Part shown: one piece after another, positions 19,306-23,428 of the stretch
Layout of the letters: every line of letters starts with the position of its first letter
Numbering within the stretch: position 1 is the first letter of the stretch
Assembly (NCBI GenBank): GCA_027450145.1
Contig: DAIDKH010000036.1
Coordinates: 1-44,729 of the forward strand
Source of the DNA: Chthonomonadaceae bacterium
GTDB taxonomy: Bacteria > Armatimonadota > Chthonomonadetes > Chthonomonadales > Chthonomonadaceae
DNA: 44,729 nt
Direction: 5' to 3'
Notes under the pieces: generated by a model
Told to the model about the DNA's origin: nothing
What the model saw: the letters and a program-made list of their open reading frames with translations, nothing else
The model's database searches: none
Translations under genes and position numbers: made by a program

Positions 19306-19788
19306 TGTTGTCACCCACCGCCTTCACACAGTCTTGTATGCTCGCTTAAAGTAAATAGGGATAATGGTAGGTAGCGCACTTGTACGATTGCGATGATATG
19401 TACTCCCTTGGGCCTGGGTGTGCTGCGTCGGGCGTTGCCATCAGCCTGTGTGTAACGCATAGAACCACGCGGTATCAGCCAATAAAAGTATTAAGCGCAA
19501 ACTCAAGCATCTGTTGCATTCTTCATCACCACTCGCTAACCGTTTCATCATCAGCGCAGCAAATTATTGATAAGATTACTTGCGAAATTCGTTACCTACT
19601 TGGAGTATAATTTAGGTCACATTTCTATGATTATACACCCCTAATCATCGCGTAGCAGCTAGCGGTTCCAACCGTATCGCTAGGCTATAAACACCCAGAT
19701 TTGCGCGGTGTAATTCACCTGCTACGGAAAATACATCATCGGAACTCGTTTGTAAACTTCATTATCTACATTGTTGAGAGTTACTACT
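19306..19788. other. divergent intergenic region between YkgJ-like gene and amt
   Basis: This 483-base region must hold the promoters of both flanking genes. A perfect TATAAT occurs at 19606-19611 on the plus strand, but the TTGCGA upstream of it is 20 bases away, too far for a standard promoter. I see no clear sigma54 site that would suggest nitrogen control of amt. A 76-codon frame at 19380-19610 has no recognisable content and no good ribosome site. Confidence 0.5.
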
Positions 19789-21153
19789 ATGACGTTGAAA
19801 TCCTGCGAAGCAGCGGGGGTAAATCGCCGATTAAGTCATGTTGCATGGTTTTGTATGCTCACGCTCGTCGGCTCTGCCGTAGCCGCTAACGCACAGACCG
19901 CAACAGCCTCTCCAGGGGTGAATACTGGCGATACAGCCTGGATGCTACTATCCGCAGCACTGGTAATGCTCATGACACCTGGGCTGGCGTTGTTTTACGG
20001 CGGAATGGTCCGTTCAAAGAACATACTAAATATGCTGATGCAAAGCTTCGTGGCCCTTGGGATCGTGACCATCGTTTGGGTGCTTTGGGGCTATTCACTC
20101 GCATTCGCGCCGGCAACTCCGTACATTGGCGGTCTGCAATGGATCGGACTGAACCACGTCGGAGGCACTCCATCACCACTGTATGCACCCACCATTCCTC
20201 ATCAGCTCTACATGATTTACCAAATGATGTTCGCCATCATCACCCCGGCATTGATCAGTGGTGCCATTGCAGAGCGTATGAAGTTCTCTGCCTATTGTCT
20301 GTTCATGGTCCTTTGGTGCACGGTAGTGTATTGCCCGATTGCGCACTGGGTATGGGGCAGCGATGGCTGGCTTAACAAACTTGGAGCACTAGATTTTGCC
20401 GGTGGTACCGTCGTTCATATCAGCAGTGGAGTGTCGGCCCTGGTATTGGTCCTTATGCTTGGTAAGCGCTCGGCATCCGGGACACTGGCGGAGGAGGAAC
20501 TGCGTCCTCACAATCTGCCAATGACGCTCACCGGCACTGCCTTATTGTGGTTCGGCTGGTTTGGCTTCAATGCAGGTAGTGCACTTTCCTCCAGTAGTCT
20601 GGCGGTTTCTGCTTTCTGCACTACGCACATTGCTGCGGCCGCAGCCGGCCTAACCTGGATTCTGATAGAGTGGGTAAAATTCAAAAAGCCTTCTGCCTTG
20701 GGCTTCGCCACCGGCGCAGTGGCAGGACTGGTTGCAATCACTCCGGCATCAGGATTCGTTTCCATTACATCGGCTATCATCATTGGCATCTGTGTTTCGT
20801 TCATCTCGTTCAACGCGATAAAGCTCAAGACCATATTCAAGTTTGATGACGCGCTTGATGTATTTGGAGTACACGGTGTTGGAGGCATGTTCGGAGCCAT
20901 TGCCACCGGCTTGTTTGCCTCTACCGCTATCAATGTAGCAGGTGCTAATGGACTTCTAGAAGGTGGCGGTTCAGCCTTAGTACTAAAGCAACTTGCTGCA
21001 GTGGGAAGCACCGTTTCATTTGCGGCAATCGGTACATTTGTAATTGTTAAGTTGCTTCAGCTTACGATTGGAATTCGCGTCTCGGCGGATGAAGAGTCGG
21101 CCGGGCTCGACGTCTCGTTGCACAGTGAAGAAGCATATGCTATGGCGGAGTAG
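19789..21153 (+). CDS. amt: ammonium transporter
   Basis: Amt is a trimeric inner-membrane channel for ammonium. The 454-aa protein has a cleavable-type N-terminal segment (MLTLVGSAVAANAQ) before the conserved start of the channel at TAWMLLSAALVMLMTPGLA, then eleven membrane helices. Family signatures include FYGGMVRSKNILN, DFAGGTVVHISSGVSALVL, WFGWFGFNAGSALSS and DVFGVHGVGGMFGAI. ATG 19789 is preferred over TTG 19771, with GAGAG eight bases upstream. No PII (glnK) gene is next door, which is unusual for amt; the next plus-strand gene is an unrelated CARF protein. A GC-rich hairpin 14 bases after the stop probably ends the transcript. Confidence 0.96.
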   Translation: MTLKSCEAAGVNRRLSHVAWFCMLTLVGSAVAANAQTATASPGVNTGDTAWMLLSAALVMLMTPGLALFYGGMVRSKNILNMLMQSFVALGIVTIVWVLWGYSLAFAPATPYIGGLQWIGLNHVGGTPSPLYAPTIPHQLYMIYQMMFAIITPALISGAIAERMKFSAYCLFMVLWCTVVYCPIAHWVWGSDGWLNKLGALDFAGGTVVHISSGVSALVLVLMLGKRSASGTLAEEELRPHNLPMTLTGTALLWFGWFGFNAGSALSSSSLAVSAFCTTHIAAAAAGLTWILIEWVKFKKPSALGFATGAVAGLVAITPASGFVSITSAIIIGICVSFISFNAIKLKTIFKFDDALDVFGVHGVGGMFGAIATGLFASTAINVAGANGLLEGGGSALVLKQLAAVGSTVSFAAIGTFVIVKLLQLTIGIRVSADEESAGLDVSLHSEEAYAMAE

Positions 21154-21266: not shown

Positions 21267-22370
21267 ATGATCACTATACTTTGCACTGTGGGAACGTCGC
21301 TGTTGGGTCACCTGGCACAGCGAAAGATTGAAGAGGTTAGTGGCCTTGAAGTTACGTTGGAAAACGCAAGCCGCATCGGGGCGGGCCTTACCGCCCTCGA
21401 CATAGATGATAGACGATGTGGTGCGGAGATAACCTCCACTTGGTCTCTTTTGCGCTCAAAGGACGATACGCACCGCGAAAAGTTGGTTTTGTTCACATCG
21501 GATACAGATGACGGGCGACTTGTGGGAGCAGTGTTAAAGAGCTATTTCATGAACCAGCGCTGCAAGATTAAGTTTGATTCCGTAGAGGCGCTTGCCGTCA
21601 AGGATCTAAACGACAGCGACCGTGAGAGATTCAAGACTCACGGTCTCCGAGCGCTAGTGCGCATGATGACCGAGAGTGTGAAAAAAGCTCGCAACCTTGG
21701 TAACGATATAATGATAAACGCCACTGGTGGCTACAAAGCCCAAATCGCCTACGCTACTCTACTTGGACAACTCTTGAAAGTTCCTGTTTACTATCAATTT
21801 GAGCGGTTCGCAGAAATAATTGAGATGCCCATAATGCCTGTGGCTTTTGATCTTTCGTTGTATTTACTAAACTCCGACTTGTTCAACGAGATGGAGGACG
21901 ACTACATTTCAGCGAGTGACCCTAGATTAATCCAGGCGCCCGCAGCCCTGGAGCCGATGTTCCACAGGGAAAACGATAAGGTAATTCTCACCGCACTTGG
22001 GAGTCTCTACGTGGAGTCGATGCGCGAACAATATCGCAAAGACCCTATGTTGCCGCCTTCATCCGGCCTCTTACCAAGTGAAAAGAAGATCACTCGAAGC
22101 GATGGTCACCACCGTCCTGAAAACCTGGACAAGTTGCTGAAACATCTAACATCCATAGAGCAAATTATGTCCATTCACCTCGAACCTGGGCGTCCCACAC
22201 ACCAGGACTTGGAGTTTAAAGTTGCCCAGGAAGTATCGATTATAAAGGCTCACGTTCGTGATCGTGCAGGGATGAACCCACCGTGCACACTCGTATTGCA
22301 TACCACGGCAGCGTCGACAAATCAGCAGGCAGCATTACGACTCTGGTTGGAAGATCAGATACATCAGTAG
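21267..22370 (+). CDS. CARF-domain protein, APE2256 (CRISPR ancillary) family
   Basis: The N-terminal ~190 residues form a CARF Rossmann-like domain of the APE2256/Csx type. The first strand and loop are ILCTVGTSLL (T7-S11) and the ligand-loop signature is NATGGYKAQIAYATLLG (from N151), followed by KVPVYYQFERF and EMPIMPVAFD. In known proteins this domain binds cyclic oligoadenylates made by type III CRISPR complexes. The C-terminal ~160 residues contain a basic EKKITRSDGHHRP stretch (272-284) and a final beta-rich segment (TLVLHTTAASTNQQA). Length and layout are compatible with CARF-RelE ribonucleases such as Cami1, but I cannot assign this domain firmly; no HEPN or PD-(D/E)XK motif is convincing. 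ATG 21267 has GGGAG upstream. No cas10, other cas gene or CRISPR array lies in the window. Confidence 0.8.
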   Translation: MITILCTVGTSLLGHLAQRKIEEVSGLEVTLENASRIGAGLTALDIDDRRCGAEITSTWSLLRSKDDTHREKLVLFTSDTDDGRLVGAVLKSYFMNQRCKIKFDSVEALAVKDLNDSDRERFKTHGLRALVRMMTESVKKARNLGNDIMINATGGYKAQIAYATLLGQLLKVPVYYQFERFAEIIEMPIMPVAFDLSLYLLNSDLFNEMEDDYISASDPRLIQAPAALEPMFHRENDKVILTALGSLYVESMREQYRKDPMLPPSSGLLPSEKKITRSDGHHRPENLDKLLKHLTSIEQIMSIHLEPGRPTHQDLEFKVAQEVSIIKAHVRDRAGMNPPCTLVLHTTAASTNQQAALRLWLEDQIHQ

Positions 22371-22528
22371 TGCCCTCGTCAGTGGAACAATCTGCAACTC
22401 CCTAAGGATAAATGGTGCAGCGAAATCAAGGTATGCTTTAGGTACCGTTAGCGCCTCATTGTGTGGACTTGGTTCAAACACGGCTACGGGTGATCAACCA
22501 CAGGCAGGGACTCAGGAGGTCAGTCGTC

Positions 22529-23428
22529 ATGGATTTGGAAGTACTAAGGCGTGAGCATCTATGTGAAACCGCGGAGTTAGCTGAACTCATAGCCCATAAC
22601 ACTCCCAACCTCAGAGTTGTAGATATCCGCGGCTACGTTAAATCGACTCCCCTGCCGGATGGCAGCCAAAAGGCGGAGTACGTACCAGCACCGGCGCAGT
22701 ATTCAGAGGGGCACATTCCTGGTGCAATCTACATCGACTGGACTCGTGACATTGTCGACGTTTCCGATCCCGTACCAGTTCAGCTCGCGCCAGTATCTCA
22801 GCTTGTCGCACTGTTTCAGCACGCGGGTATTGGCGATGATACGATGGTAGTTGCCTATGACGATCACCCCACAAGCCAGTTTGCAACTCGCCTGTGGTGG
22901 GTACTCAGAACTCTTGGCTTTCATAACGTACGCGTGCTAAATGGTGGGTTTCGAAAATGGTTGGGTGAACACCGCAGCGTTTCACAGGAAGTACCCACGT
23001 ATCCTGTGGCGCACCTAACAGCGCACCCCCGTCCCACACTTCGAGTCACAGCAGACGAGGTAGTCAGCCTGCTTGGCTGTGAAGGCGTTACGCTACTGGA
23101 CGCCCGTGGCGCCGACCAGTATTTCAACGAAGTACACAGGGGCTCGCGTGGCGGCCACATTCCCGGCGCACGGCTACTGCCCCGAGAATTGCTGATTACA
23201 GAAACCGGTGAATTTCTGCCGTCCGAGGAGCTGCGAGCCAAGGTTGAACATGCTGGTGCCAACCCTGCAGATCGTTGTATAGCCTACTGCAACGGAGGCG
23301 TGGCGGCGACTGCCGTGCTTTTTGCCCTCTCCATGTTGGGCTATCCCAACTTGGCCAACTATGATGGATCGTGGAATGAGTGGAGTGAGCGGCTAGATCT
23401 GCCCGTAAACGATCCATCCATTCGGTAG
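22529..23428 (+). CDS. two-domain sulfurtransferase (rhodanese/3-mercaptopyruvate type)
   Basis: The 299-aa protein has tandem rhodanese domains and probably moves sulfane sulfur from thiosulfate or 3-mercaptopyruvate to an acceptor. Domain 1 (about residues 20-145) has VVDIRGYV and YSEGHIPGAIYIDW, but Asp at the place of the catalytic cysteine (VAYDDHPTSQFATR), as is usual for the inactive half. Domain 2 (about 165-290) has LLDARGADQYF, GGHIPGARLLP and the active-site loop YCNGGVAATA, with C254 as the sulfur carrier. ATG 22529 is preferred over the far upstream ATG 22463 because AGGAGGT lies eight bases before it. It follows the CARF gene by 158 bases; a functional link is not evident. CNGGVA differs from the CGSGVT of typical mercaptopyruvate enzymes, so the donor is uncertain. 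Confidence 0.9.
   Translation: MDLEVLRREHLCETAELAELIAHNTPNLRVVDIRGYVKSTPLPDGSQKAEYVPAPAQYSEGHIPGAIYIDWTRDIVDVSDPVPVQLAPVSQLVALFQHAGIGDDTMVVAYDDHPTSQFATRLWWVLRTLGFHNVRVLNGGFRKWLGEHRSVSQEVPTYPVAHLTAHPRPTLRVTADEVVSLLGCEGVTLLDARGADQYFNEVHRGSRGGHIPGARLLPRELLITETGEFLPSEELRAKVEHAGANPADRCIAYCNGGVAATAVLFALSMLGYPNLANYDGSWNEWSERLDLPVNDPSIR

Follow-up and report, generated by a model that had tools for sequence, protein, structure and literature searches.

Cami1 (PDB 8phb/8phj) is a ribosome-acting ribonuclease that consists of a CARF domain, a winged helix and a RelE domain. The ring nucleases Sis0811 and SSO1393 have a CARF domain of the APE2256 type with equivalent serine and lysine residues (S12 and K169 in Sis0811, both altered by mutation in PDB entry 7pqa), and their solved chains lack the C-terminal output domain described below. 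Another described CARF protein, the orphan VC1899 of Vibrio cholerae, is encoded away from type III genes and does not respond to cA4; its site is reportedly unsuited to this ligand, and it has no type III partner (PMC7969007). In addition, the PADLOC collection catalogues a family named CARF7--CARF_DUF2103 (PDLC01930), a known and widespread CRISPR-alarm family of predicted sensor-effectors. Here we analyzed a gene of this family in a Chthonomonadaceae genome (G000), located at positions 21267-22370 on the plus strand of a 44,729-nucleotide stretch of contig sequence that constitutes the window of this study. The gene encodes a protein of 367 amino acids with an ATG start and no internal stops; both contig ends are more than 21 kb away, and the gene is intact and the protein complete. 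We consider it highly probable that this protein is a trans-acting type III CRISPR effector, in which a sensor and a winged helix that are sister to those of Cami1 are joined to a different output domain.

CARF sensor and winged-helix region

The PADLOC model CARF7--CARF_DUF2103 covers residues 3-364 of the 367-aa protein (E 1.3e-88). In the AlphaFold model (72-row alignment, mean pLDDT 93.4), the CARF sensor domain occupies residues 1-195 (positions 21267-21851, plus strand) and is followed by a winged-helix-like region at residues 196-262 (21852-22052, plus strand) and by a separate C-terminal output domain at residues 263-367 (22053-22367, plus strand) with a beta-alpha-beta4-alpha arrangement. 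In three ortholog pairs, pN was far below pS in each domain, with dS mostly saturated. The assignment of the sensor to the APE2256 type, which was made by a sequence-only reading of this DNA, is confirmed by a match to the Pfam family Cas_APE2256 at residues 49-189 (E 2.4e-36) and by the ligand loops TVGTS (residues 7-11) and NATGGYK (151-157). Across 72 relatives, residues N151-G155 and K157 do not vary, and S11 is almost invariant.

The best structural match of the full model is Cami1 (Z 23.7, 3.0 Å over 244 residues, model residues 2-263), and the Cami1 sequence profile matches the protein over residues 5-255 (E 3.3e-30); the proposed relation to Cami1 is thus borne out for the CARF and winged-helix part, where the two cores are alike. 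The PADLOC CARF_RelE models also match the protein, chiefly over the same part. By structure, Cami1 is followed by the ring nucleases Sis0811 and SSO1393 (Z 19-21 over about residues 1-257), and the winged-helix-like region matches both Cami1 and Sis0811. The Sis0811 residues aligned with S11 and K157 are S12 and K169, which suggests that the CARF domain may also cleave its own activator. This residue match, together with the rank of Sis0811 as the next structural match (Z 21.0), would also suit a protein that is mainly a ring nuclease, degrading cA4 and switching off type III immunity with the C-terminal domain as an accessory. We regard such a role as very unlikely, given that the C-terminal domain is a separate unit kept under purifying selection and is retained in 71 aligned sequences, where its His-bearing loop is conserved, whereas the solved chain of Sis0811, with 275 aa, stops after its CARF and helical part.

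C-terminal output domain

The C-terminal part bears EKKITRSDGHHRP, as previously described, and had been called unassigned. This remains valid with respect to Pfam, where no convincing family was found for the C-terminal part (2-oxogl_dehyd_N, MbtH and Elong_Iki1 were rejected as inconsistent matches below the curated cut-offs), but not with respect to PADLOC, whose full-length model covers the whole architecture. All 72 aligned members of the family match PDLC01930 and the same PADLOC models as the 367-aa protein. The PADLOC model NsnC matches 17 of the 72 relatives at E 1e-10 or better, and the 367-aa protein has no match at that threshold; no paper describing NsnC as a defence gene was found.

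The DUF2103 label given by PADLOC to the C-terminal part has no support from Pfam PF09876 among the matches listed for the 71 C-terminal domains, and DUF2103 was therefore rejected as a Pfam assignment. The profile similarity is weak: hhalign against cyanobacterial DUF2103, for which the profile is shallow, gave a probability of 32% (p 4.8e-4) over 21 columns, and this alignment spans the helix located just after the His motif in both. No PF09876 gene was found in the bacterium's own order, and a literature search on DUF2103 retrieved nothing.

Modelled alone, the C-terminal domain is predicted with high confidence (71-row alignment, pLDDT 91.9), and it has no significant match in the PDB (best Foldseek E 0.12). 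In the VIA comparison of the isolated domain, Z was at most 4.7, with PH/PTB-like arrangements; at this Z the PH/PTB fold was not accepted and was taken as a common arrangement. The best match in BFVD (E 0.024) is nameless. The same part of the protein had earlier been proposed to be RelE-like as in Cami1. According to this explanation, the protein would be a Cami1-like ribonuclease with a diverged RelE domain cleaving mRNA at the A site of the ribosome, and both the structural match of the CARF and winged-helix part to Cami1 and the PADLOC CARF_RelE matches, which lie mainly in that part, are consistent with it. However, the Cami1 structural alignment ends at residue 263, the confidently modelled C-terminal domain resembles no PDB entry significantly, and its profile aligns with the C-termini of RelE-type CARF7 proteins at an hhalign probability of 0.1. 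The C-terminal domain is thus not detectably RelE, in contrast to Cami1, and RelE is rejected on the sequence profile though not on fold; it is also absent among the VIA rows for the isolated domain, although a RelE fold could escape such a comparison. Overall, a RelE-type ribonuclease appears improbable to us.

The His-bearing loop, GHHRP at residues 280-284 of the 367-aa protein, is conserved in 64 of the 71 C-terminal domains, with no other stretch of equal length exceeding 48%. Together with TT at residues 346-347, within the TT(A) strand end (346-348), this loop is probably the best candidate for a functional site. In a cyanobacterium (locus L075), a short CARF paralog of about 300 aa at positions 1456-2443 terminates with the output domain's ETTGR motif, and a full-length copy of the family is located about 8 kb away.

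Genomic site and type III systems

The absence of cas genes and arrays from the surrounding 45 kb, noted by the sequence-only reading, holds under each of our searches: a simple repeat scan detected no CRISPR array in the window, genome-wide searches for RAMP and Cas10 proteins gave no match on this contig, and the ten neighbouring proteins have no cas match and no convincing defence match. The flanking genes are, as stated before, those of an ammonium transporter (amt, 19771-21153, plus strand) and of a sulfurtransferase, which is of the rhodanese type (22463-23428, plus strand). The order amt, CARF7 gene, rhodanese gene on one strand is kept in all three genomes of the genus (G000, G001 and G002). 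Between G000 and G001 or G002, respectively, identity is 90% and 86% for amt and 82% and 81% for the rhodanese, and only 64% and 58% for the CARF7 gene; judged by these identities, the CARF7 gene evolves faster than its flanks. Defence genes often evolve faster. Other genera of the family also have the rhodanese gene, and neither amt nor a CARF gene was found there within 1.5 kb of it; thus, the position between amt and rhodanese looks specific to the genus, a local accident that carries no functional message by itself.

The G000 genome encodes two type III systems, both on contigs other than that of the CARF7 gene. Contig C23 carries a III-D locus with a 488-aa Cas10 containing the GGDD motif, Cas7 and Cas5 of the III-D type and a Card1-like CARF nuclease; it is adjoined by a type I-B set with Cas6. 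In this set, a 551-aa ORF between Cas7 and Cas6 (locus L029, 4005-5660, minus strand) has no Pfam or PADLOC match, and its position suggests a diverged Cas8. The III-B locus, on contig C118, comprises Cmr3 and other RAMP proteins, and a tandem pair of Csx1 (CARF-HEPN) genes is located beside the III-B genes (locus L028, 79-1305 and 1341-2654, minus strand). Since the end of Cmr2 was found at the edge of C118 using the Cmr2 of a relative as query (69% identity), the III-B Cas10 appears to have been cut by the assembly rather than shown to be absent. Together with the two Csx1, the Card1-like protein and the product of the 21267-22370 gene, the genome encodes at least four CARF proteins. Of the two items for which a genome search had been suggested, a GGDD-containing Cas10 was found on C23; a search with one common repeat-end pattern (ATTGAAAC-type repeats) detected no array in the genome, and none was seen in the C23 and C118 stretches read. 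The earlier description of the gene as an orphan is therefore correct in that it is unlinked to cas genes, but, with two type III systems on other contigs of the same genome, orphan here means unlinked, not unpartnered.

The genus-wide location between amt and rhodanese, at a distance from cas genes, could also be read as the mark of a protein that has departed from CRISPR signalling and answers another nucleotide and is perhaps tied to amt, and VC1899 provides a precedent for an unlinked CARF protein with no cA4 response (PMC7969007). A non-CRISPR signal is the less likely case, because the VC1899 site is unsuited to cA4, whereas the ligand loops and the S and K residues of the 367-aa protein are intact and shared with type III-linked relatives. 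The two type III loci in the genome and the apparently accidental nature of the amt neighbourhood also argue against such decoupling, to which we assign little probability.

A scan of public genomes with the alignment of relatives identified 80 loci in Desulfobacterota, Cyanobacteria, Planctomycetota, Thermotogota, Poribacteria, Nitrospirota, Armatimonadota and others; a contig scan with the single protein as query and a viral scan yielded no relatives. We compared CARF7 and RAMP positions by hand in 31 genomes from other groups. Type III RAMPs are encoded in 28 of them, and in 22 the CARF7 gene and a RAMP gene share a contig and are at most about 7 kb apart; the remaining CARF7 genes with no close RAMP are mostly on short contigs or near contig ends, and G090 is a clear unlinked case outside the genus studied here. 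Thus, unlike most CARF7--CARF_DUF2103 relatives, which are located beside type III genes, the 21267-22370 gene is unlinked to cas genes. An Armatimonadota genome (G094) has a type III-linked family copy on contig C36 and a second copy (C4, 55086-56135) on a contig with no RAMP matches.

Co-occurrence was evaluated in 61 genomes, comprising the bacterium's own and 60 relatives, of which 21 carry CARF7 and 40 do not. Cas10 is present in 19 of the 21 carriers versus 13 of the 40 non-carriers (Fisher p 1.3e-5, uncorrected for kinship); this count includes a marginal Cas10 in G012, and if that genome is counted as lacking Cas10, the p-value becomes 1.1e-4, likewise uncorrected for kinship. The two carriers without Cas10 are G002 and G027. 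No type III gene was found in G002, which has an ortholog and an assembly that is only 74% complete. In G027, the CARF7 gene is located at a contig end with a RAMP gene next to it. GGDD Cas10 loci are present in G001 and G010, the ortholog carriers with the more complete assemblies: the genus mate G001 has III-B and III-D loci with GGDD Cas10, and the III-B system of G010 includes a GGDD Cas10 and is accompanied by a CARF-type gene. The possibility raised by the sequence-only reading, that the protein answers a remote type III system, is supported by the III-D and III-B loci on other contigs and with the mostly type III-linked family elsewhere.

Proposed mechanism and its implications

Based on these comparisons, we propose that the protein acts as an effector in trans. 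Phage RNA would be recognized by a type III complex encoded elsewhere in the genome, at the III-D and/or the III-B locus, and the Cas10 palm domain of this complex would then produce a cyclic oligoadenylate, most likely cA4. A CARF dimer would bind this molecule between the TVGTS and NATGGYK loops, and the change would pass from the CARF domain via the winged-helix region and reach the C-terminal domain, whose action would then be toxic or growth-arresting. We favour translation as the target, solely because the CARF and winged-helix part is common with the ribosome-acting Cami1, and cleavage of the activator by the CARF domain itself, via S11 and K157, may serve as an off-switch. In this scheme we infer the ligand, the dimerization, the ring nuclease activity and, for the output domain, both its target and its chemistry. 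What speaks against the effector reading is that the gene is unlinked to any cas gene in the genus, that the 74%-complete G002 assembly has the ortholog but yielded no type III gene, and that the array search with one repeat-end pattern was negative in the G000 genome. As a tentative extension, which we think rather unlikely to hold in full, the C-terminal domain would be a new CARF output domain, structurally unlike those of solved effectors, that is perhaps carried to the ribosome by a Cami1-type winged helix, arrests translation by non-RelE chemistry, and in this genus is deployed in trans for two type III systems.

The interest of this locus lies in the output domain and in the genus-wide trans arrangement. 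The CARF7 subfamily is widespread, and its output domain is confidently modelled, with no significant match among solved structures and no activity reported in the literature searched. In this genus, the CARF7 gene is conserved at a site on the chromosome that is separate from two type III systems, both of which could feed the 367-aa protein. The rule, used in searches, that any CARF effector has to lie within a type III locus is thereby corrected.
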